Shown here: positions 8,151 through 38,676 of the stretch, in pieces
Position numbering within the stretch: position 1 is the first letter of the stretch
How the letters are laid out: every line of letters starts with the position of its first letter
Assembly (NCBI RefSeq): GCF_020176795.1
Contig: NZ_JAIUKE010000055.1
Coordinates: forward strand, 1-40,822
Origin: Streptomyces sp. 8L
GTDB taxonomy: Bacteria > Actinomycetota > Actinomycetes > Streptomycetales > Streptomycetaceae
Direction: 5' to 3'
DNA: 40,822 nt
Notes under the pieces: model-generated
What the model saw: only the letters and a program-made list of their open reading frames with translations
Databases searched by the model: none
Told to the model about the DNA's origin: nothing
Translations under genes and position numbers: made by a program

Positions 8151-8597
8151 ATGGCCGGACAGTTCGAGGCCACCGTCGACATCGACCGCCCGGTCGAGGA
8201 GGTCTTCGCCTTCCTCGCCGACGGCGAGAACGATCCGAAGTTCAGTCCCCGCGTCATGGAGATGCAGCGGACGACGCCCGGCGCCACCGAGGTCGGCACG
8301 GTCTACGCGAGCACCGTCAAGGACGCCGGGATGACCACCCACCGCGTCTTCCGCATCAGCGAGTTCGACCCGCCGCGCCGTATCCGCTGGACGGAGACCT
8401 CCAAGAACATGGTCACGGTCCCCGAGGGCGGCTACGACCTGGAGGCCGCGGACGACGGTACGACGCACCTGCGCGTCTTCAACAACATGGAGGGGCACGG
8501 CGTGGGCAAGCTCCTCGCCGGCTTCGCCCTGAACGCCGCCCGCAAGGACGGCGACGCGTTCGCCCACCGCATCAAGGACGCCGTCGAGGGCGCCTGA
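8151..8597 (+). CDS. SRPBCC (polyketide cyclase/START-like) protein
   Basis: This is a 148-residue cytosolic protein with the helix-grip fold pattern of the SRPBCC superfamily. It begins FEATVDIDRPVEEVFAFLADGENDPKF, has a central strand-rich section containing FDPPRRIRWTET, and ends in a long C-terminal helix from GKLLAGFALNAARKD. GGAGGAACGAG directly precedes the ATG. Proteins of this size bind small hydrophobic ligands or act as accessory enzymes. The family does not define a substrate, and the neighbours give no further hint. It is convergent with fdhD. Confidence 0.88.
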   Translation: MAGQFEATVDIDRPVEEVFAFLADGENDPKFSPRVMEMQRTTPGATEVGTVYASTVKDAGMTTHRVFRISEFDPPRRIRWTETSKNMVTVPEGGYDLEAADDGTTHLRVFNNMEGHGVGKLLAGFALNAARKDGDAFAHRIKDAVEGA

Positions 8598-8737
8598 CCG
8601 GGGCCTGACTCGGGGGCTTCGCGTCCGGACCCGGGCAGCCCGGCGCCCGGATGTCCCGGGCCGAGGAAAACCGGTGGTCCGGTGGTCGACGCCGGTGGTC
8701 GACGGCCGGACCGCGAAGTGGGGCCCGGGAACGGACC

Positions 8738-8777
8738 GGCCCGGCCGGCGCAGGGGGCGCTCCCCGCCGGCCGGGCC
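8738..8777 (-). terminator. Strong stem-loop downstream of fdhD
   Basis: A perfect 13-bp stem runs from 8738-8750 (GGCCCGGCCGGCG) to 8765-8777, with a 14-nt loop that can itself pair GGGG with CCCC. It lies 22 nt beyond the fdhD stop codon and between convergent genes, so it can serve both. Confidence 0.7.
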
Positions 8778-8784
8778 TCATCCC

Positions 8785-8803
8785 GTGACGCGAGGCGCGT
8801 CAC
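8785..8803 (-). terminator. Small hairpin overlapping the fdhD stop codon
   Basis: GTGACGCG (8785-8792) and CGCGTCAC (8796-8803) form a perfect 8-bp stem with a 3-nt loop. The stop codon (8800-8802) lies inside the arm. It may add to termination or protect the 3' end. Confidence 0.45.
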
Positions 8804-9639
8804 ACCCCGGTGTGGAGGGCGATCCGTTCATCGCCCGCGTACACGTTCATGGAGGGGCCGCGCAGGAATCCCACCAGCGTCAGCCCCGTCTCGGCCGCCA
8901 GGTCGACGGCGAGGGACGACGGCGCCGAGACCGCCGCGAGCACCGGGATGCCCGCCATGACGGCCTTCTGCGCCAGTTCGAAGGACGCGCGCCCCGACAC
9001 CAGCAGGATCGCCCGCGACAGCGGCAGCAGGTCCTCGCGCAGGGCCCGCCCCACGAGCTTGTCCACCGCGTTGTGGCGGCCGACGTCCTCCCGTACGTCC
9101 AGGAGTTCGCCCGACTCGGAGAACAGCGCCGCCGCGTGCAGACCCCCGGTCCTGTCGAAGACCCGCTGCGCCGCGCGCAACCGGTCGGGGAGAGCCGCGA
9201 GCAGAGCGGGCTCGACCAGGACCGGGGGCGTATCGGCGATCTTGAACCGGGCCGTCGTACGCACGGCGTCCAGGCTGGCCTTGCCGCACAGCCCGCAGGA
9301 CGACGTCGTGTAGACGTTCCGCTCCAGCGTGATGTCCGGGACCGGGACCCCGGGGGCGAGCCGCACGTCGACCACGTTGTACGTGTTCTGCCCGTCGTCC
9401 CTGGCGCCCGCGCAGTACACGATCGACTGCACGTCCGCCGCCGAGGCCAGCACCCCCTCGCTGACGAGGAAGCCCGCGGCCAGCGCGAAGTCGTCGCCCG
9501 GCGTGCGCATGGTGATGGCGAGGGCCTTGCCGTTCAGGCGGATCTCCAGCGGTTCCTCCGACACCAGGGTGTCGGGGCGGGCGCTGACCGCGCCGTCCCG
9601 GATGCGTATCGTCCGCCGTCGTTCGGTGACCCGTCCCAT
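8800..9639 (-). CDS. fdhD: Formate dehydrogenase accessory sulfurtransferase FdhD
   Basis: This 279-residue protein carries sulfur from a cysteine desulfurase to the molybdenum cofactor, which activates formate dehydrogenase. The CxxC of [11 protein letters not shown] is the catalytic pair of the family. [17 protein letters not shown] at the N-terminus, the [13 protein letters not shown] segment and [12 protein letters not shown] are all hallmark FdhD stretches. The ATG at 9639 has AGGA about 9 nt upstream and gives the usual length. No formate dehydrogenase gene is in the window. Its presence next to an oxalate/formate antiporter fits disposal of formate from oxalate. Two candidate GntR sites and a long structured leader lie upstream. 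Confidence 0.95.
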
Positions 9640-9709
9640 GTGATCAGTCCTACTCGTATCTCTTCCGCGCCGCCAGACTTCCGCCGGCGCTGCCGTACCC
9701 GCCTGCCCG

Positions 9710-9749
9710 CGTATCCGTGTATTCGCGTATCCGCGTATCCGCGTATCCG
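9710..9749. repeat. Five tandem 8-bp repeats in the fdhD leader
   Basis: The unit CGTATCCG occurs at 9710-9717, 9726-9733, 9734-9741 and 9742-9749, with a diverged copy TGTATTCG at 9718-9725. Such an array is prone to slippage and may vary in copy number between strains. Confidence 0.85.
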
Positions 9750-9809
9750 TCGAGACAGGACCGGCTCCTGGCGCGGGGACCGTCCGGTCACCGCCTCGTT
9801 CGTGCTGTC

Positions 9810-9825
9810 CTGCTGTCCACAGTAG
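9810..9825. promoter_or_regulatory. Candidate GntR operator A2 upstream of fdhD
   Basis: CTGCTGT-CC-ACAGTAG is an inverted repeat with one mismatch between 7-nt arms. It has the same CTGT-N2-ACAG core and spacing as the perfect palindrome at 11109-11124. It lies about 170 nt upstream of the fdhD start. Confidence 0.45.
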
Positions 9826-9875
9826 GCGCGCCCGGCCGCCGTCCGCGCCGGACGACAGCCGCCTCGGCGCGGGCT

Positions 9876-9913
9876 CCCGGGGGAGGCGGCGCGCGTCGCG
9901 CGCCTCCCCCGGG
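9876..9913 (-). other. Perfect 13-bp hairpin in the fdhD leader
   Basis: CCCGGGGGAGGCG (9876-9888) and its exact complement (9901-9913) enclose a 12-nt GC-only loop. It may be the terminator of the upstream reductase gene, whose stop is 135 nt away, or an attenuator in the fdhD leader, because the candidate promoter/operator site lies on its upstream side. Confidence 0.6.
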
Positions 9914-9933
9914 CGATGGCCGGCGGTCCGCCC

Positions 9934-9950
9934 CATTGCATACAGTATTC
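9934..9950 (-). promoter_or_regulatory. Candidate GntR operator A / fdhD promoter
   Basis: The 13-mer CATTGCATACAGT at 9934-9946 is repeated exactly at 38576-38588. On the other strand, GAATACTGTATG (9950-9939) is repeated exactly at 38593-38604. It includes a TATGCA that could be a -10 for leftward transcription of fdhD. Confidence 0.6.
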
Positions 9951-10048
9951 GCTGGGTGGAGTCCCAACGGAAGCCTGTGGACCGGGATTTGTGACGGCTT
10001 GCTCGTGCACGGTGGCGGCCGTCGGCCATCGGCGGTGTGACCGCCGGG

Positions 10049-11029
10049 TCAGGCGGCGGCGAGCGCCGTACCGCGGGCGAGCAGATCGGAGATGGCGGCG
10101 ACCGTGCACAGGGTCGGCACCGGTACGCCGGTCAGGCCGGCGAGTTCCACCACGGCGGCCAGCAGCACGTCCAGTTCGAGCGGCTTGCCCTTCTCCAGGT
10201 CCTGGAGCGTGGAGGTGCGGTGGTCCCCGACGCGTTCCGCGCCCGCGAGCCGCCGTTCGATGGAGATCGCGGGGCGGCAGCCCAGGGACCGGGCGACCGC
10301 CAGGGTCTCGGCCATCATGAGTTCGATGACGCCCCGGGTGGAGCGGTGCAGGCACATCTCCCGCATGGTCGCCCGGGTCAGGGCGCTGATCGGGTTGAAG
10401 GAGATGTTGCCGAGGAGCTTGATCCAGATGTCGTCGCGCAGCTCGGGCTCGACCGGGCACTTGAGCCCGCCCGCCCGCATGGCCTCGCTGAAGTCGAGAC
10501 AGCGGCGCGAGACCGTACGGTCCGGCTCGCCGATCGAGAACCTCGTTCCTTCCAGATGCCGGACCACACCGGGCGCCGCGAGCTCCGTCGCCGCGTAGAC
10601 GACGCACCCGACGGCGCGTTCCTGCGGCAGTACGGCGCTGACCGAGCCGCCGGGGTCGACGCTCTCGATCCGCAGGCCGTCCTGTGGCCCCCCGTGGCCG
10701 TGGAAGTACCACCAGGGGATGCCGTTCTGCGCCGCGACCACCGCCGTCGAGTCCTTGAACAGCGGCTCCACCAACGGCCCGCACGCCGCGTAGGAGTTCG
10801 CCTTCAGGCCGAGGAACACATAGTCGGCGGGGCCCACATCGGCGGGCCGGTCGGTGGCGTGGACGTGCGCGGTGAAGTCCCCGCGCGGACTGAGCACGCG
10901 GACTCCGTGCTGCCTCATGGCCGCGAGGTGCGGTCCACGGGCGATCAGATGGACGTCGGCGCCCGCTCTGTCGAGCGCGGCTCCGACGTAGGCGCCGATG
11001 GCTCCGGCGCCCACAATGGCGACTTTCAC
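10049..11029 (-). CDS. 2-dehydropantoate 2-reductase family (PanE/ApbA-like) oxidoreductase
   Basis: This is a 326-residue NADPH-dependent ketopantoate reductase family enzyme. The Rossmann motif [10 protein letters not shown] is at the N-terminus, AQNGIP carries the conserved Asn, and [17 protein letters not shown] carries the catalytic Lys and both Asn residues of the C-terminal helical domain. The GTG at 11029 has GGAG 10 nt upstream. It is divergent from the OFA antiporter across a region with a perfect ATACTGT-CT-ACAGTAT palindrome. That suggests co-regulation with oxalate genes, where it may reduce a related 2-oxo acid or supply pantoate for CoA. Neither role is shown by sequence. Confidence 0.9.
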
Positions 11030-11370
11030 GTGGGGCTCTCCATTCGGTTTGAGGGAGACCGAGAGAAGCGTCACACTCCGAGTCCATGCCGACTTCCATG
11101 TCGACGATATACTGTCTACAGTATGGGTTCTGTGCCGACAAGCCTTCCGGCGCAGCCCGGGCCCTCCCGTTCCCTTTTGTTTGCGAGCTGTTGACCGGCG
11201 TGCGCGCCGGTCCGCCGTCATGCCGCCGTGACGCTTCCGCGGGCTCCGCCCGTGCGGGCCCGGCCGTCCCGGCCACCGCGGTAACGACCCCGTCAAGCTC
11301 CCGGAACGTCATGAACACGCCGTGACACAGTTCTTCCCAAGAGCCGTTCCGCTTCTTAGAGTTCGCTGCC
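11030..11370. promoter_or_regulatory. 341-bp divergent control region, PanE-like / OFA antiporter
   Basis: The gap contains the perfect palindrome at 11109-11124 about 80 bp from the reductase start and about 250 bp from the antiporter start. The remainder is GC-rich without a recognisable gene. The antiporter ATG has no good ribosome site upstream, so a leaderless or weakly initiated message is possible. Confidence 0.5.
11109..11124. promoter_or_regulatory. Candidate GntR operator B (perfect palindrome)
   Basis: ATACTGT-CT-ACAGTAT is a perfect 7+7 inverted repeat in an otherwise GC-rich gap. Its A/T-rich ends and dyad shape match operators of FadR-subfamily (FCD) GntR proteins. The same half-sites recur at 9810, 9940, 13967 and 38581. 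Confidence 0.7.
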
Positions 11371-12723
11371 ATGACACCCCCAATCGCACCGGCCGGCTGG
11401 AGCCGATGGCTGGTGCCGCCCGCGGCGCTGGCAGTCCACCTCTCCATCGGCCAGGCCTACTCCTGGAGCGTGTTCAAGCCGCCACTCGAATCCGCGCTCG
11501 GCCTCTCGGGAACGCAGAGCGCGCTCCCGTTCCAGCTCGGCATCGTGATGCTCGGCCTCTCCGCCGCCTTCGGCGGCACCCTGGTGGAACGCAGAGGCCC
11601 GCGCTGGGCGATGACCGTCGCGCTGATCTGTTTCTCCTCCGGGTTCCTGCTGTCCGCGCTGGGTGCGGAGACGCGGCAGTTCTGGCTGATCGTCCTCGGC
11701 TACGGGTTCGTCGGCGGGGTCGGCCTCGGCATCGGCTACATCTCGCCCGTGTCGACGCTCATCAAGTGGTTCCCCGACCGGCCGGGTACCGCGACCGGTA
11801 TCGCGATCATGGGCTTCGGCGGCGGCGCGCTCATCGCGTCGCCCTGGTCGCAGGCGATGCTCGACCACTTCGGCGCCGACAGCGACGGCATCGCGCTGGC
11901 CTTCCTCGTACACGGCCTGGTCTACGCGCTGTTCATGTCGCTCGGCGTGTTCCTGATCCGGGTGCCCCGGCCGAAGCCGGACGCGCCGACCGTGCCGGGC
12001 GCGGAACCGGGCGCCGTCATGCTGATCGGGGCCGTGCAGGTGTCGGCGAAGTCGGCGCTGAAGACCCCGCAGTTCTGGTGCCTCTGGATCGTCCTGTGCA
12101 TGAACGTCACCGCGGGCATCGGCATCCTGGAGCGCGCCGCTCCGATGATCACCGACTTCTTCGCGAACACCTCGGCCGCCGTGTCCGCCTCGGCAGCCGC
12201 CGGATTCGTCGCCCTGCTCTCCGCCGCCAACATGGCGGGCAGGATCGGCTGGTCGTCGCTGTCCGACCTGATCGGCAGGAAGAACATCTACCGGGTGTAC
12301 CTGGCGGTCGGCATCATCATGTACCTGTTGATCTTCCTGGCCGGTGACGCCGCCAAGCCGCTGTTCGTCATCTGCGCGATGGTGATCCTGTCGTTCTACG
12401 GGGGCGGGTTCGCGACCCTCCCGGCGTACCTGAAGGACCTCTTCGGCACGTACCAGGTCGGCGCCATCCACGGCAGGCTGCTGACCGCGTGGTCCGTCGC
12501 CGGCGTCCTCGGGCCGCTCATCGTCAACCGGGTCGCGGACGCCCAGTCGGACGCCGGGAAGTCGGGAGCGCAGCTGTACGGCGTCTCCTTCGTCATCATG
12601 ATCTGCCTGCTCGCCGTCGGGCTGATCGCCAACGAGTTCGTCCGGCCGGTGAATCCGCGCCACCACATCGCGACACGGAAGGAGACATCCGATGGCCATG
12701 CCGGCGCGGAACCCGGAGTCTGA
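11371..12723 (+). CDS. OFA-family MFS transporter (oxalate/formate antiporter type)
   Basis: This 450-residue, 12-segment MFS protein belongs to the oxalate:formate antiporter (OFA) family. Family traits are AYSWSVFKPPLE in segment 1, the GGVGLGIGYISPVSTLIKWFPDRPG signature in segments 4-5, and YGGGFATLPAYLKDLFG followed by VGAIHGRLLTAWSVAG in the C-terminal half. It would exchange extracellular oxalate for intracellular formate or a related anion. Its last 32 nt overlap the start of a 48-residue small protein in another frame. The upstream palindrome links it to the GntR regulator 1.3 kb downstream. OFA members also carry other small carboxylates, so the substrate is inferred from context. 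Confidence 0.9.
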   Translation: MTPPIAPAGWSRWLVPPAALAVHLSIGQAYSWSVFKPPLESALGLSGTQSALPFQLGIVMLGLSAAFGGTLVERRGPRWAMTVALICFSSGFLLSALGAETRQFWLIVLGYGFVGGVGLGIGYISPVSTLIKWFPDRPGTATGIAIMGFGGGALIASPWSQAMLDHFGADSDGIALAFLVHGLVYALFMSLGVFLIRVPRPKPDAPTVPGAEPGAVMLIGAVQVSAKSALKTPQFWCLWIVLCMNVTAGIGILERAAPMITDFFANTSAAVSASAAAGFVALLSAANMAGRIGWSSLSDLIGRKNIYRVYLAVGIIMYLLIFLAGDAAKPLFVICAMVILSFYGGGFATLPAYLKDLFGTYQVGAIHGRLLTAWSVAGVLGPLIVNRVADAQSDAGKSGAQLYGVSFVIMICLLAVGLIANEFVRPVNPRHHIATRKETSDGHAGAEPGV

Positions 12724-13964: not shown

Positions 13965-13984
13965 CAGTAGACTGTAGACGATAG
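13965..13984 (+). promoter_or_regulatory. Candidate GntR operator C upstream of gntR
   Basis: CAGTAGACTGTAGACGATAG contains GTAGACTGTA, which is also found on the complement of 38583-38592, and ACTGTAGAC, which is found on the complement of 11109-11124. It is an imperfect site 35 nt before the regulator ATG, placed as expected for autorepression. Confidence 0.5.
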
Positions 13985-14019: not shown

Positions 14020-14697
14020 ATGTTGTCCGCAGGACTGCCGCACGGCACGGTACCGAAGCTGGAGCGCCCGGGGCCGCTGCGCGAGCGGGTCTACGAGGCG
14101 CTCCTCGAACTGATCATCACCCGTGCCCTGACGCCGGGCCAGCACCTCGTCGAGAGTGAACTGGCAGGCCATCTCGGGGTGTCGCGGCAGCCGGTCCGCG
14201 AGGCGCTCCAGCGGCTGAACACCGAGGGCTGGGTCGACCTGCGCCCCGCGCAGGGCGCGTTCGTCCACGAGCCGACCGAGTCGGAGGCCGACCAGCTGCT
14301 CTCCGTACGCACACTGCTGGAGGCGGAGGCCGCGCGGCTCGCCGCCGCCGCCTCCGACGCCGAGGGCATCGCGGACCTGGAGGCGCTGTGCGGGCAGGGA
14401 GAGCGGGCGGTGGACGACGACGACGTCGATCTGGCCGTCGCGACCAACGCCGCCTTCCACGCGCGGGTGATGGCGATGGCGAGCAACGTCGTCCTGGCGG
14501 AGCTGGCCGGCCAGGTGGACCGCAGGGTCCGCTGGTACTACACGCCCGTGGCCCGCCAGCGCGGGCGGCAGTCGTGGATCGAGCACCGCGAGCTGATCAG
14601 CGCGATCGCGGCCCACGACGAGGCCAGGGCCGTCACCGTGATGCGCGCCCACACCGAGCACACCCGGTCGACCTACCACCACCGCGAGCACGACTGA
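14020..14697 (+). CDS. GntR family transcriptional regulator, FCD subfamily
   Basis: This 225-residue regulator has an N-terminal winged HTH (about residues 17-83: LRERVYEALLELIITR, then ELAGHLGVSRQPVREALQRL) and an all-helical FCD effector domain. The FCD metal-ligand histidines are visible in NAAFHARV, EHRELI and MRAHTEH. GGGAGA precedes the ATG. FCD-type GntR proteins usually bind a carboxylate through a metal ion and release AT-rich palindromes. Candidate sites of one type precede this gene, fdhD, the PanE/OFA pair and the ThDP/sucC pair. I infer that it is the regulator of the oxalate genes, probably a repressor. Oxalate, oxalyl-CoA, formyl-CoA or glyoxylate are possible effectors. Confidence 0.92.
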   Translation: MLSAGLPHGTVPKLERPGPLRERVYEALLELIITRALTPGQHLVESELAGHLGVSRQPVREALQRLNTEGWVDLRPAQGAFVHEPTESEADQLLSVRTLLEAEAARLAAAASDAEGIADLEALCGQGERAVDDDDVDLAVATNAAFHARVMAMASNVVLAELAGQVDRRVRWYYTPVARQRGRQSWIEHRELISAIAAHDEARAVTVMRAHTEHTRSTYHHREHD

Positions 14698-16546: not shown

Positions 16547-18076
16547 ATGGCGCCAGCGCCACCCGACACAGCTCTGCTCACCATGTCCGGCATCACCAAG
16601 ACCTTCCCCGGCGTGCGCGCCCTGGACGGCGTCGACCTGTCCGTCCAGGCGGGCGAGGTCCACTGCCTCCTCGGGCAGAACGGAGCGGGGAAGTCGACCC
16701 TGATCAAGGTCCTCGCCGGTGCCCACCAGCCCGACGACGGCGTCATCACCTGGTGCGGCGAGCAGGTCACCGTGGGATCGCCGACCGCGGCCATGCGCCT
16801 GGGCATCGCGACCATCTACCAGGAACTCGACCTGGTCGAGGGCCTGTCGGTGGCCGAGAACATCTTCCTCGGCCATGAACCCACCGCCGCGGGCTTCGTC
16901 GTGCGCGGCCGGCACGCCCGGAGCCGGGCCGCCGCCCTGCTCCGGCGCCTCGGCCACCCGGAGATCCCGCCCGGCCGGCCCGTCGGCGACCTGTCGGCGG
17001 CCCAGCGCCAGATCGTCTCCATGGCCCGTGCCCTGTCCCACGACGTCCGGCTGATCATCATGGACGAGCCGTCTGCCGCGCTCGACCCCGACGAGGTCGC
17101 CAACCTCTTCCGGATCGTGGCGACGCTCGTCGCGGACAGCGTGGCCGTGGTGTACATCTCCCACCGCCTGGAGGAGATCCGGCGCATCGGCGACCGGGTC
17201 ACCGTGCTCAAGGACGGCAGGACCGTCGCGGTAGGGCTGCCCGCCGCACGGACCCCCACCGCCGAGGTCGTCACCCTGATGACCGGGCGGGCCGTGGAGA
17301 ACGCCTTCCTCCGGCGGACCACCCCGCCACCCGCCGAGGCCGAACCGGTGCTGCGCGTCGAAGGGCTCAGCAGGCAGGGCGAGTTCGCCCCCTTCGACCT
17401 GGAGGTGCGGCCGGGAGAGATCGTCGGGCTCGCCGGGCTCGTGGGCTCCGGGCGCTCCGAGATCCTGGAGACGGTCTACGGGGCGCGCAGACCCACCACG
17501 GGCCGCGTCACCGTCGACGGTAAGGCGCTGCGCCCCGGCAGTGTGCGCTCCGCCGTGCGCGCGGGACTCGGCCTCGCCCCCGAGGAACGCAAGGCGCAGG
17601 GCCTGCTGATGCTCGACACCGTCACGAGCAACGTGTCGGTGTCCACGCTCTCCCGCTTCTCGCGCGGCGGCTGGCTGGACCGGACCGCCGAGCGCACCGC
17701 GGCGCACGCGGCCACCAGGGAACTCTCGCTGCGCCCCGACAACCCCGACGCGGCCGTGCGCACCCTCTCCGGCGGCAACCAGCAGAAGGCGGTCCTCGCC
17801 CGCTGGCTGCTGCGCGGCTGCCGTGTGCTGCTGCTGGACGAACCCACCAGGGGCGTGGACGTCGGCGCGCGCGCCGAGCTCTACGCCGTGATCCGCCGGC
17901 TGGCCGACGACGGCCTCGCCGTCCTGCTCGTCTCCAGCGAGGTGCCGGAAGTGCTCGGCCTCGCGGACCGCGTGCTGGTGCTCCGCGAGGGCCGCGTCGT
18001 CCACCGGGCGCCGGCCGGGGAGCTGGACGAACACCGCGTACTCGACCTTGTGATGGAAGGGAGCCCGACGCCATGA
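16547..18076 (+). CDS. Sugar ABC transporter ATP-binding protein (RbsA/MglA type, two NBDs)
   Basis: This 509-residue ATPase has two fused nucleotide-binding domains. The first has Walker A GQNGAGKST, signature LSAAQRQ and Walker B LIIMDEPSAAL. The second has the degenerate Walker A GLVGSGRSE usual for this family, an intact LSGGNQQK signature and LLLDEPTRGVD. This is the CUT2 class (ribose, xylose, galactose, inositol). It would energise the permease encoded next, with which it overlaps by ATGA at 18073-18076. The ATG at 16547 was chosen for GAGGGGA; the upstream frame is Pro/Arg filler. The cytosolic face of the membrane is its place. Confidence 0.95.
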   Translation: MAPAPPDTALLTMSGITKTFPGVRALDGVDLSVQAGEVHCLLGQNGAGKSTLIKVLAGAHQPDDGVITWCGEQVTVGSPTAAMRLGIATIYQELDLVEGLSVAENIFLGHEPTAAGFVVRGRHARSRAAALLRRLGHPEIPPGRPVGDLSAAQRQIVSMARALSHDVRLIIMDEPSAALDPDEVANLFRIVATLVADSVAVVYISHRLEEIRRIGDRVTVLKDGRTVAVGLPAARTPTAEVVTLMTGRAVENAFLRRTTPPPAEAEPVLRVEGLSRQGEFAPFDLEVRPGEIVGLAGLVGSGRSEILETVYGARRPTTGRVTVDGKALRPGSVRSAVRAGLGLAPEERKAQGLLMLDTVTSNVSVSTLSRFSRGGWLDRTAERTAAHAATRELSLRPDNPDAAVRTLSGGNQQKAVLARWLLRGCRVLLLDEPTRGVDVGARAELYAVIRRLADDGLAVLLVSSEVPEVLGLADRVLVLREGRVVHRAPAGELDEHRVLDLVMEGSPTP

Positions 18077-25594: not shown

Positions 25595-26451
25595 GCCCGC
25601 GTCTCGGCTACGGCACCAACGGCCTCACCGACCTGCGGCTCGACGACGCCCTCGGGCTCCTCGCGGATCTCGGCTACGACGGCGTCGGCCTGACGCTCGA
25701 CCACATGCACCTCGACCCGCTCGCCCCCGACCTCGCCGGCCGCACCCGCGCCGTCGCCGCGCGCCTCGGCTCGCTCGGGCTCGGCGTCACCGTCGAGACC
25801 GGGGCGCGCTATGTGCTCGACGCTCGCCGCAAGCACGGCCCCACACTGCTCGACGCCGACCCCGCCGCGCGTGCCGCGCGCGTCGGACTGCTGCTGAGAG
25901 CCGTACGCGTCGCCGCCGACCTCGGTGCGTGCGCCGTCCACTGCTTCAGCGGCGCACTCGGCGGGGGCGAGGAGCCGCGGGCGGGGTGGGACCGGCTCGA
26001 AGAGGGCCTCGCACCGGTCCTCGACGCCGCGGACCTGGCCGGTGTTCCGCTCGCCGTCGAACCCGAACCCGGCCACCTCGTCGGCGACCTCGCGTCCTTC
26101 CACACCCTGCGCCACCGCCTGGGCGACCCCCCGTCCCTCGGACTCACACTCGACGTCGGCCACTGCCAGTGCCTCGAACCGGCCCCGCCCGCCGACTGCG
26201 TGCGCGACGCCGCGCCCTGGCTGCGCCACGTACAGATCGAGGACATGCGGCGCGGTGTGCACGAACACCTGCCGTTCGGCGACGGCGAGATCGACTTCCC
26301 GCCCGTGCTCGACGCACTCGACGCCGTCGGCTACCAGGGCCTCACCGTCGTCGAGCTGCCACGCCACTCGCACGCCGGACCCGAACTCGCCCGGCGCTCC
26401 ATCGAGTTCCTCAGGCACGCCCGCGCCCGCGCGAAGGGAGCACGCGTATGA
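25591..26451 (+). CDS. Sugar phosphate isomerase/epimerase-like TIM barrel in the ebo operon
   Basis: This is a 286-residue xylose-isomerase-like TIM-barrel protein. Metal ligands expected in the family are seen in LAVEPEPGHLV (Glu), LTLDVGHCQC (Asp, His), VQIEDMRRGVHEHLPFGDGEIDF (Glu/Asp/His) and VVELPRHSH (Glu). It starts at ATG 25591, overlapping the UbiA stop by ATGA. Its last codons, ARARAKGARV, are the source of two downstream 38-bp duplications. It probably acts on the sugar or cyclitol intermediate of the operon; the reaction is unknown. Confidence 0.9.
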   Translation: MSPRLGYGTNGLTDLRLDDALGLLADLGYDGVGLTLDHMHLDPLAPDLAGRTRAVAARLGSLGLGVTVETGARYVLDARRKHGPTLLDADPAARAARVGLLLRAVRVAADLGACAVHCFSGALGGGEEPRAGWDRLEEGLAPVLDAADLAGVPLAVEPEPGHLVGDLASFHTLRHRLGDPPSLGLTLDVGHCQCLEPAPPADCVRDAAPWLRHVQIEDMRRGVHEHLPFGDGEIDFPPVLDALDAVGYQGLTVVELPRHSHAGPELARRSIEFLRHARARAKGARV

Positions 26452-26489
26452 GACTCGCCCGCGCCCGCGCGAAGGGAGCACGCGTATGA
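26448..26489 (+). CDS. 13-codon mini-ORF 1 linking two ebo genes
   Basis: This ORF starts with an ATG overlapping the TIM-barrel stop (ATGA, 26448-26451) and encodes MRLARARAKGARV. It ends with a TGA overlapping the next ATG at 26486. GAAGGGAG precedes it, so translation is plausible. It arose from the 38-bp duplication. I regard it as a reinitiation relay rather than a functional peptide. Confidence 0.5.
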   Translation: MRLARARAKGARV

Positions 26490-26527
26490 GACTCGCCCGC
26501 ACCCGCGCGAAGGGGGCACCGGTATGA
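26486..26527 (+). CDS. 13-codon mini-ORF 2 linking two ebo genes
   Basis: This ORF encodes MRLARTRAKGAPV. Its start overlaps the stop of mini-ORF 1 and its TGA (26525-26527) overlaps the eboA ATG at 26524. It has the same GAAGGGAG-type ribosome site. Because 38 is not a multiple of three, the three ATGs are in three different frames. Confidence 0.5.
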   Translation: MRLARTRAKGAPV

Positions 26528-27105
26528 GACCCACCCGTGCCACGCTTGCCCCCCGCCTCGACGGCCCGGCCCGCGCGTGGCTGGACGCGGCGCTCGCCGA
26601 GGCCGCCGCACCGGGAGACGGCGCCTGGGAGCTCAGGTTCGCCGCCGCCGGGCGGGTGTGCGGCCAGGACAACGCCGACGACGTCCGCGTCCTGCTCCTC
26701 GACCGCGCCGGGGCCGGAGTCGCGACCCTGGATCGCCTCTACCGGCAGGGCAGCGGCGCCGAGCGGCGCGCCGTCCTGCTCGCCCTGCCGGGCCGCGTCC
26801 CCGGCCCCGAGGCCGTGCCGCTGGTCGAGGACGCCCTGCGGGCCAACGACACGCGGCTCGTCGCCGCGGCCGTGGGGCCGTACGCCGCCGACCACCTGCA
26901 CCCGCACGCCTGGCGGCACGCCGTGCTCAAGTGCCTCTTCACAGGGGTGCCCGTCGAGCAGGTCGCGGGCCTCGCGAGGCGCGCCGCGGGCGATCGCGAA
27001 CTCGCCCGCATGCTCGGCGACTTCGCCGCGGAACGCGGCGCCGCGGGGCGGCCCGTGCCCGCCGGCCTGCACCGCGTACTCGCCCTGACGGGACTGGAGT
27101 CCTGA
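26524..27105 (+). CDS. eboA: EboA domain protein
   Basis: This 193-residue, mostly helical cytosolic protein matches the EboA domain family in length and pattern: RAWLDAALAEAA at the start, VLLLDRAGAGVATLDRLYRQGSGAERRAVLLALP in the middle, and DHLHPHAWRHAVLKCLFTGVPVEQVAGL toward the C-terminus. EboA has no known biochemical activity. In cyanobacteria the ebo cluster is needed for export of a scytonemin precursor to the periplasm. Its start at 26524 lies at the end of a chain of overlapping mini-ORFs, and it overlaps the next gene by one base (TGATG). Confidence 0.9.
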   Translation: MRPTRATLAPRLDGPARAWLDAALAEAAAPGDGAWELRFAAAGRVCGQDNADDVRVLLLDRAGAGVATLDRLYRQGSGAERRAVLLALPGRVPGPEAVPLVEDALRANDTRLVAAAVGPYAADHLHPHAWRHAVLKCLFTGVPVEQVAGLARRAAGDRELARMLGDFAAERGAAGRPVPAGLHRVLALTGLES

Positions 27106-31703: not shown

Positions 31704-31870
<167 letters not shown>

Positions 31871-38528: not shown

Positions 38529-38575
38529 GGAGTGTTCCTGTCCCTTCGTCAGAACGCGGTGAGGCGCTCCCGGTA

Positions 38576-38606
38576 CATTGCATACAGTCTACGAATACTG
38601 TATGAA
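38576..38606. promoter_or_regulatory. Candidate GntR operator D with overlapping divergent promoters
   Basis: CATACAGT (38581-38588) and ACTGTATG (38597-38604) are perfect 8-bp arms spaced by 8 nt. On the plus strand TTGCAT (38578-38583), 17 nt and TATGAA (38601-38606) make a plausible sigma-70-type promoter for sucC. On the minus strand TTCATA and TATGCA at 16-nt spacing make one for the ThDP operon. A protein bound here would block both. Confidence 0.7.
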
Positions 38607-38676
38607 CCTTGTTATCCCCCATCTCCGGGGGTGGTGTCCAGGGGGCGTGCGGCACTTGACGAAAAAGAGGAGCGGC

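Follow-up and report, generated by a model that had tools for sequence, protein, structure and literature searches.

Molybdenum and formate genes may be preceded by long leaders in which a strong hairpin acts as part of an attenuator or riboswitch (the Moco riboswitch is an example), and phase-variable genes carry short tandem units near the gene start. Operon deletions with promoter capture leave a different kind of trace, in which homologous flanks surround a missing middle and the downstream gene is joined to an upstream promoter. In GntR-FCD (FadR-type) repressor systems, finally, the gene of a GntR protein with an FCD domain lies within the cluster and a palindromic operator overlaps the promoters of a catabolic regulon. 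The DNA ahead of fdhD in the Streptomyces stretch analysed here (40,822 nt, hereafter the window) resembles each of these to some degree. The feature is real but was misread in the original prediction, which saw in it a possible attenuator and a possible slippage switch: the leader is very probably the recent scar of an operon deletion that left fdhD behind a captured fdhA promoter/operator, and its hairpin and repeats look like junction filler and not like a conserved control device. Among open-licence papers, no literature on this operon, its operator or its loss was found.

The fdhD locus and the operon of its relatives

The window belongs to an assembly of 9.08 Mb in 990 contigs, and the relatives retained for comparison were 80 (79 Streptomyces and one 'Actinobacteria bacterium'). 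Long G and C runs lie close together at 31713–31868 (27 G; 56 C at 92%) and may reflect either a weak spot in the assembly or a genuine homopolymer tract. The genes that frame the leader, together with the regulator gene of the cluster, are the following:

8800–9639, minus strand: fdhD, FdhD/NarQ family, 279 aa, last gene of the former operon (PF02634, 9.4e-71)
10049–11029, minus strand: KPR, ketopantoate-reductase-like (ApbA/PanE), first gene of the former operon (PF02558/PF08546); it precedes fdhA where the operon is intact
14020–14697, plus strand: GntR-FCD regulator (PF00392 + PF07729)

The PF02634 profile covers FdhD over its full length (positions 1–236 of 237), which places the protein in this family, and an FdhD match at 1e-30 is present in 292 of the 295 genomes of the genus. 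On the minus strand KPR is followed, after a gap of 409 nt, by fdhD. The extent first given to the leader has been corrected accordingly: the ATG of fdhD is at 9639–9637, and the gap behind the KPR stop covers 9640–10048. A KASIII-like gene also lies close to fdhD, as does an MFS carrier whose best NCBIfam matches, none of which reaches its cut-off, are L-lactate and oxalate/formate carriers. Further to the right there are a formyl-CoA transferase (TIGR03253, above cut-off), a TPP enzyme from the group of acetolactate synthase and oxalyl-CoA decarboxylase (none of the best 25 of 49 matches is above the cut-off of its model) and sucCD-like genes; the GntR-FCD protein is matched by NCBIfam models only far below their cut-offs. 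On the other side, between the convergent fdhD and SRPBCC genes, a perfect 13-bp GC hairpin with no T-run (8738–8777) is probably a terminator shared by both.

In many Streptomyces the order is KPR, then fdhA-fdhB-fdhC (approximately 4.6 kb), then fdhD; in locus L039, for instance, KPR is followed by fdhA (639 aa), fdhB (610 aa), the Fe-S gene fdhC and fdhD. FdhA has Molybdopterin and Molydop_binding domains, FdhB is NuoE/NuoF-like (2Fe-2S thioredoxin-like, Complex1_51K, NADH_4Fe-4S), and FdhC of genome G112 has Fer2 (2Fe-2S), 4Fe-4S and, at residues 232–283, Molybdop_Fe4S4 domains. The alignment of FdhA with TIGR01591 begins only at position 52 (629 bits, below the cut-off of 666), a late start in keeping with an Fe4S4 part that FdhA lacks and fdhC supplies. 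An intact fdhC (>270 residues) stands directly before fdhD in 54 of 110 loci, of which 38 also have fdhA in view. These loci are the best matches to the FdhD of the window and not a random sample of the genus, and the 110-locus counts leave out L001 (the window again) and L124–L130; since L009/L033 and L022/L037, on contigs of equal length, each probably represent one organism present in two collections, the 54 intact loci come down to about 52. The remaining loci are classed as deleted, which means that no intact fdhC stands directly before fdhD; at least one genome so classed, G198 (L021), has a formate dehydrogenase elsewhere.

The window has no fdhABC between KPR and fdhD, and its own genome, searched with fdhA, gave no match at 1e-60. 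At this threshold 281 of 295 genomes have a match; among the matches listed, the identity is at least 66% in 101 of the 295 and the next value is 41%. Six PF00384 loci are retained in the own genome: one is FdhF/YdeP-type, one is an FDH-N-type alpha gene with an Fe-S gene, one reads like a nuo cluster, and C495, C275 and C88 are the remaining three. Enzymes such as the FdhF/YdeP-type and FDH-N-type ones are possible clients of FdhD, which would explain why fdhD was kept. The closest relative found is G112, whose FdhD is 96% identical and whose operon is split over two contig ends (KPR-fdhA-fdhB(start) and fdhB(rest)-fdhC-fdhD).

The junction between KPR and fdhD

The comparison with G112 divides the gap between the two genes into two flanks and a middle:

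9640–9693, minus strand: right flank, with the last fdhC codons, the fdhC-fdhD spacer and the fdhD ribosome-binding site (aligned to G112; score 76 against a maximum of 38 in 100 shuffles)
9694–9914, minus strand: middle, 221 bp in the place of fdhABC (approximately 4.6 kb in L039), with no clear homology to the intact operon except for a possible 27-nt relic
9817–9843, minus strand: possible relic of the fdhC codons T-T-V-C-A-Y-C-G (start of the Fe4S4 domain), 23/27 identical to G112
9915–10048, minus strand: left flank, homologous to the KPR-fdhA spacer of G112, operator region included (local score 123 against a maximum of 47 in 100 shuffles)
9932–9950, minus strand: probable captured fdhA promoter/operator, GAATACTGTATGCAATGGG; an identical 19-mer precedes fdhA in the intact locus L046 (S. 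lushanensis)

The right flank is 87% identical to G112 over 54 nt, and the left flank is 79% identical over query positions 12–134. Among the matches listed for 392 genomes searched, G112 is the only one to match both ends of the scar. At 1e-8, a search with the leader among 61 genomes gave the own genome as the sole match; at 1e-3, 225 of 392 genomes match, mostly with short GC-rich or octamer pieces that lie elsewhere.

The deletion accounts for little of the 221-bp middle, and this filler, with its hairpin and octamers, sets the window apart from the operon deletion scars described above. The stretch at 9817–9843 is possibly a piece of fdhC: it scores 34 against the fdhC tail of G112, a value that 10 of 3000 shuffles attain, and its distance from fdhD is nearly that of the CAYCG codons in G112. 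Its match to five other intact fdhC tails is weak or absent. When the whole operon was searched with the middle, the best match was a different GC-rich stretch, reached by 6 of 100 shuffles. An origin of the filler in other fdh pieces was rejected, as no convincing match was found on either strand of the G112 operon, and so was a mobile or repeated element, as a search of the own genome with the scar revealed no repeat family: apart from the locus itself and its hairpin in inverted orientation, there were 40 short matches, the best of them with E 0.001. A translated N-terminal extension of FdhD was also discarded: the frame is open up to 10029, but the upstream sequences of the relatives are unlike each other.

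The original prediction of a candidate promoter/operator at 9934–9950 (AATACTGTATGCAATGG on the minus strand) holds well: there is a real operator- or promoter-like site at 9932–9950. The presence of the identical 19-mer before fdhA in L046, where ATACTGT begins 57 nt before the fdhA GTG, is the reason to read it as the fdhA operator. Among the 39 intact loci inspected the site precedes fdhA in L046 only, and in G112 the operator before fdhA is degenerate, so that the case for its presence in the common ancestor of the window and G112 rests on L046, L036 and L016; the last two have the order KPR-operator-fdhD, with fillers that differ. By the spacing of L046, the lost fdhA start would fall at approximately 9891, inside the hairpin. 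Three studies give TANNNT as the −10 motif of Streptomyces (PMC4895711, PMC8780764, PMC6742748). TACTGT at 9947–9942 fits this pattern and is a candidate −10 box.

Related sites are found before other genes of the cluster:

11109–11124, minus strand: KPR operator, ATACTGTAGACAGTAT, conserved to within one mismatch in 47 of the 51 sequences taken upstream of KPR
13969–13984, plus strand: operator-like site before the GntR gene, 13/16
38575–38610, no strand assigned: two neighbouring operator-like sites (38575, 38594) between the oxc-like and sucC-like genes

The other four KPR rows (L016, L032, L046, L067) end at the edge of the locus; the 51 rows exclude KPR matches of less than 300 bits or starting after residue 10, and L128 and L129 among them repeat the genomes of L016 and L005. 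Sites like ATACTGT-n2-ACAGTAT stand before KPR (11109), fdhD (9933) and the GntR gene (13969), and the oxc-like and sucC-like genes have two of them in between. When 40.8 kb were scanned with a matrix, KPR, fdhD, 38575 and the GntR gene took the first four places, followed by the second palindrome of the leader in fifth place and then by 38594. The matrix was made from 22 distinct KPR sites and five fdhA/fdhD sites, the window's own two included, and both of these therefore score high by construction. Across the genome, ATACTGTANRCARTA at up to two mismatches is not enriched (7 matches, against 14 in the reversed control), which means that isolated weak sites say little.

As in the FadR-type systems, an FCD-type GntR gene is linked to its putative targets, and several of these are preceded by a common palindromic site, which is ATACTGT-n2-ACAGTAT at KPR and has related forms at the GntR gene, oxc/sucCD and fdhD; the difference is that the pairing of regulator and site is here a putative one. 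The cluster is a probable oxalate/formate regulon under GntR-FCD control, fdhD most likely belongs to the regulon of the 9932–9950 site, and the product of 14020–14697, judging from its neighbourhood, is the likely reader of the operator.

The following history would account for these observations. The gene order of the ancestor would have been KPR-[operator]-fdhA-fdhB-fdhC-fdhD, an operon for a split formate dehydrogenase of the NAD type under probable GntR-FCD control. In the lineage of the window, after the split from G112, approximately 4.6 kb (fdhABC) would have been lost, and 221 bp of other sequence are now found in their place, with the left junction just behind the fdhA operator/promoter and the right junction at the end of fdhC, and the deletion would thereby have moved fdhD behind the fdhA promoter. 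The fdhD transcript probably starts near 9935, so that some 295 nt of scar RNA would precede the gene and the hairpin would lie at about +23 to +60. Since the operator overlaps the −10 motif, a bound GntR protein should block initiation; a GntR-type repressor at 9932–9950 would then open or close fdhD transcription, and expression would follow the operator.

Hairpin, second palindrome and octamers

Three further elements of the leader were named in the original prediction:

9876–9913, minus strand: 13-bp GC hairpin at the left breakpoint, arms 9876–9888 and 9901–9913, loop of 12 nt
9810–9825, minus strand: second palindrome, CTACTGTGGACAGCAG, a weak operator look-alike (12/16 to the operator)
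9710–9749, minus strand: five octamers, CGGATACG on the minus strand, found in none of the other fdhD leaders

The hairpin is as perfect as it was claimed to be, its arms being fully complementary, and on the minus strand it folds with −39.5 kcal/mol (z −4.6, 200 shuffles). Hairpins of its class (arms of at least 13, loop of 3–20) number three in the window and none in each of 15 dinucleotide shuffles, and none of 400 shuffled leaders contains one. Of 110 fdhD leaders, that of the window alone has a 13-bp hairpin, and 39 KPR-fdhA spacers contain none; shorter ones of 11–12 bp occur, at other places, in three further fdhD leaders. The absence of both the hairpin and the octamers from every other fdhD leader indicates that they probably arose at or after the deletion. 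According to the history proposed above, the hairpin, the octamers and the second palindrome would be junction material with at most a passive effect on expression, the hairpin perhaps as a barrier and the palindrome perhaps as a weak second operator.

Among the other explanations, the one that survives best, although it is doubtful, takes the hairpin for a partial terminator, RNA stabiliser or barrier that works without regulation and was kept or tolerated after the deletion. Its stability and position speak for such an effect, the stem at 8738–8777 is similar, and two transcript-end studies report that most mapped ends in S. avermitilis and S. lividans are without a U-rich motif (PMC8780764, PMC6742748). 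Against this, the single occurrence among 110 leaders gives no comparative support and, in the same studies, ends that lack U are the weaker terminators in S. avermitilis (PMC8780764) and are no more structured than random positions in both species (PMC8780764, PMC6742748).

A role of the second palindrome in a repression loop has less in its favour. The palindrome (CTGCTGTCCACAGTAG) is present, but it is imperfect, with 6 of 8 pairs. As the fifth-best matrix location of the window it resembles the operator at 12 of 16 positions, tied with a site at 17462, and this degree of match is reached by only 7 of 1000 shuffled leaders, a rarity that would suit an arrangement in which two operators, at 9932–9950 and 9810–9825 and separated by approximately 123 bp, form a loop over the hairpin and so tighten repression. 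Such a loop is improbable: the palindrome differs from the operator at 4 of 16 positions and has a matrix score of 9.7, compared with 24.7 for the main site, and the codon relic could yield the same letters.

The idea that the hairpin is a regulated attenuator of the fdhD leader, responsive to formate or molybdate, fares worse still. The hairpin is very stable and lies slightly more than 20 nt downstream of the putative start, and the stem of the same class at 8738–8777 (13-bp perfect arms, no T-run) raises the possibility that such stems terminate transcription here. But the hairpin sits at a recent breakpoint, and it departs from the Moco riboswitch and the molybdenum and formate attenuators in being confined to one leader of the 110, with no T-run, no alternative helix and no Rfam match. 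A simple scan and a reading of the letters after the hairpin revealed no terminator with a T-run, a sigma-70 scan of 8550–11500 gave no promoter-like and no terminator-like sites, and when the leader is folded as a whole, the minimum-energy and the centroid structure both retain the hairpin, and no antiterminator helix competes with it. The window has no Rfam family at gathering score, and a riboswitch was rejected on this account. Regulated attenuation at this site is accordingly very unlikely.

The octamer array is a genuine tandem array, as predicted, but of the five repeats only four are identical (CGTATCCG), and one has two changes (TGTATTCG). TRF gives 5.4 copies with 88% match at 9707–9749, and the 8-nt periodicity score is 28/32, whereas none of 1000 shuffled leaders exceeds 23. 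In the rest of the window the score rises to 22 before 9600 and to 32 after 10100, and the latter value shows that the array is not the most regular stretch of the window. In other genomes, stretches similar to the octamers are found at unrelated places, the best being in G306 (84%, 58 nt) and G080 (97%, 29 nt). The first of these genomes has a related octamer run, CGGGTACG/CGAGTACG, of three units (L114:1525–1548), at a place that the search does not relate to fdhD, and another repeat array of this operon is seen in the KPR-fdhA spacer of L047, where GAGGAGCGCCGTAT units are repeated before fdhA. That the array is a slippage (phase-variation) switch is hardly credible: it is interrupted, at the other fdhD loci no octamer exceeds two exact tandem copies and the own genome has exact tandem copies of the unit nowhere else, the similar octamer-rich stretches in other genomes (query 300–342) are what is expected of simple repeats, and FdhD starts with MGRVTE in 12 inspected loci and has its own ribosome-binding site after the array. 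Compared with phase-variable repeats, then, the array is imperfect, lies outside the conserved reading frame and has no counterpart of another copy number among the fdhD leaders compared.

Intact and deleted operons across the genus and a probable promoter within fdhC

In the fdhD tree, the window and G112 are sisters (SH-aLRT 99) with opposite operon states, from which it follows that the change in the lineage of the window is recent. The intact and deleted states are interleaved: the label needs 25 changes on the tree, and 15 of these are forced by strongly supported branches, although this is a quick, unrooted tree of 108 different sequences that does not separate gain, loss and transfer. 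The event in the window is in this way interleaved with other changes at the same place in the genus, a further difference from the deletion scars described above. KPR is still close to fdhD in 11 loci without intact fdhC (window included), where it ends 112–928 nt before fdhD, and the inspected fillers between the two genes are dissimilar to each other. Taken alone, the unrooted tree would also allow a KPR-fdhD arrangement that is ancestral, with fdhABC inserted in other lineages, but this has next to no probability given that tails of dead fdhC still stand upstream of fdhD where the gene itself is missing (tblastn finds them in 23 of the 56 loci, the 14-mer described below in 44) and that the right flank of the window holds the last fdhC codons of G112, both of which argue for loss and not gain.

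These remnants include a short element that may have served fdhD itself. The 14-mer GTGCAGGACAATGA (up to two mismatches, within 300 nt of fdhD) is kept in 44 of the 56 loci without intact fdhC, at distances of 54–170 nt, and the window has lost it. When consensus 14-mers taken every 4 nt were scanned in the same way, those lying 8 nt or more upstream were kept in at most 12 of the 56 loci, the one 4 nt upstream, which overlaps GTGCAGGACAATGA, in 29, GTGCAGGACAATGA itself in 44 and those downstream in 15–32, compared with a maximum of 3 for motifs with shuffled letters. The Asn codon within the element is AAT in 50 of 53 intact fdhC genes (L055 left out), compared with 26 of the 436 Asn codons at its other positions, a comparison between related rows whose p-value is not to be taken literally. 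Both the survival of the 14-mer and the AAT bias fit an fdhD promoter inside fdhC, and the fossil of the dead gene is probably fdhD's own promoter. Its GACAAT departs from TANNNT in the first letter, which is not a T, and 46 rows chosen by similarity to the 14-mer show no conserved −35; the 56-locus counts are the less biased figures. With regard to a wider promoter class in the own genome, the 14-mer has 129 matches there at up to two mismatches, against 58 in the control.

The operator core is found in 5 of the 12 loci without the 14-mer (window included) and in 5 of the 44 with it (Fisher p 0.03, relatedness ignored). Where fdhC is intact, the core is absent from the 700 nt next to fdhD at every locus. 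On balance we lean towards the view that the usual fdhD promoter of Streptomyces is the 14-mer GTGCAGGACAATGR inside the end of fdhC, preserved through repeated deaths of that gene, and that where it is lost fdhD tends to gain the GntR operator/promoter of the deleted operon, the window being a recent swap. If so, fdhD would tend to have switched from its own to pathway-controlled expression where the 14-mer was lost.

With the deletion as the most probable origin of the leader, the attenuator and slippage readings give way to a datable event, in which the loss of a formate dehydrogenase operon would have rewired the maturation gene fdhD to an oxalate/formate regulator. The frequency with which the operon flips between intact and deleted on the tree makes Streptomyces a natural series on the survival of a promoter after the death of its host gene, and on how often the surviving gene captures the operator of a neighbour. 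It also calls for caution, because strong leader hairpins and repeats can be junction debris.

Some minor observations concern the rest of the window and of the genome. A 38-bp tandem repeat (3.3 copies, 90% alike) lies at 26418–26541. On contig C265 of the own genome, an operator-like site is found 78 nt before an FdhF/YdeP-type oxidoreductase gene (L160:3370–3385); fdhF was rejected as a general member of the regulon, as an operator of at least 13/16 precedes it in 2 of 30 loci (own included), which makes it a local extension only. Another operator-like site, with one mismatch, lies approximately 120–130 nt before a cyanase gene on contig C312 (L161:1026–1040).
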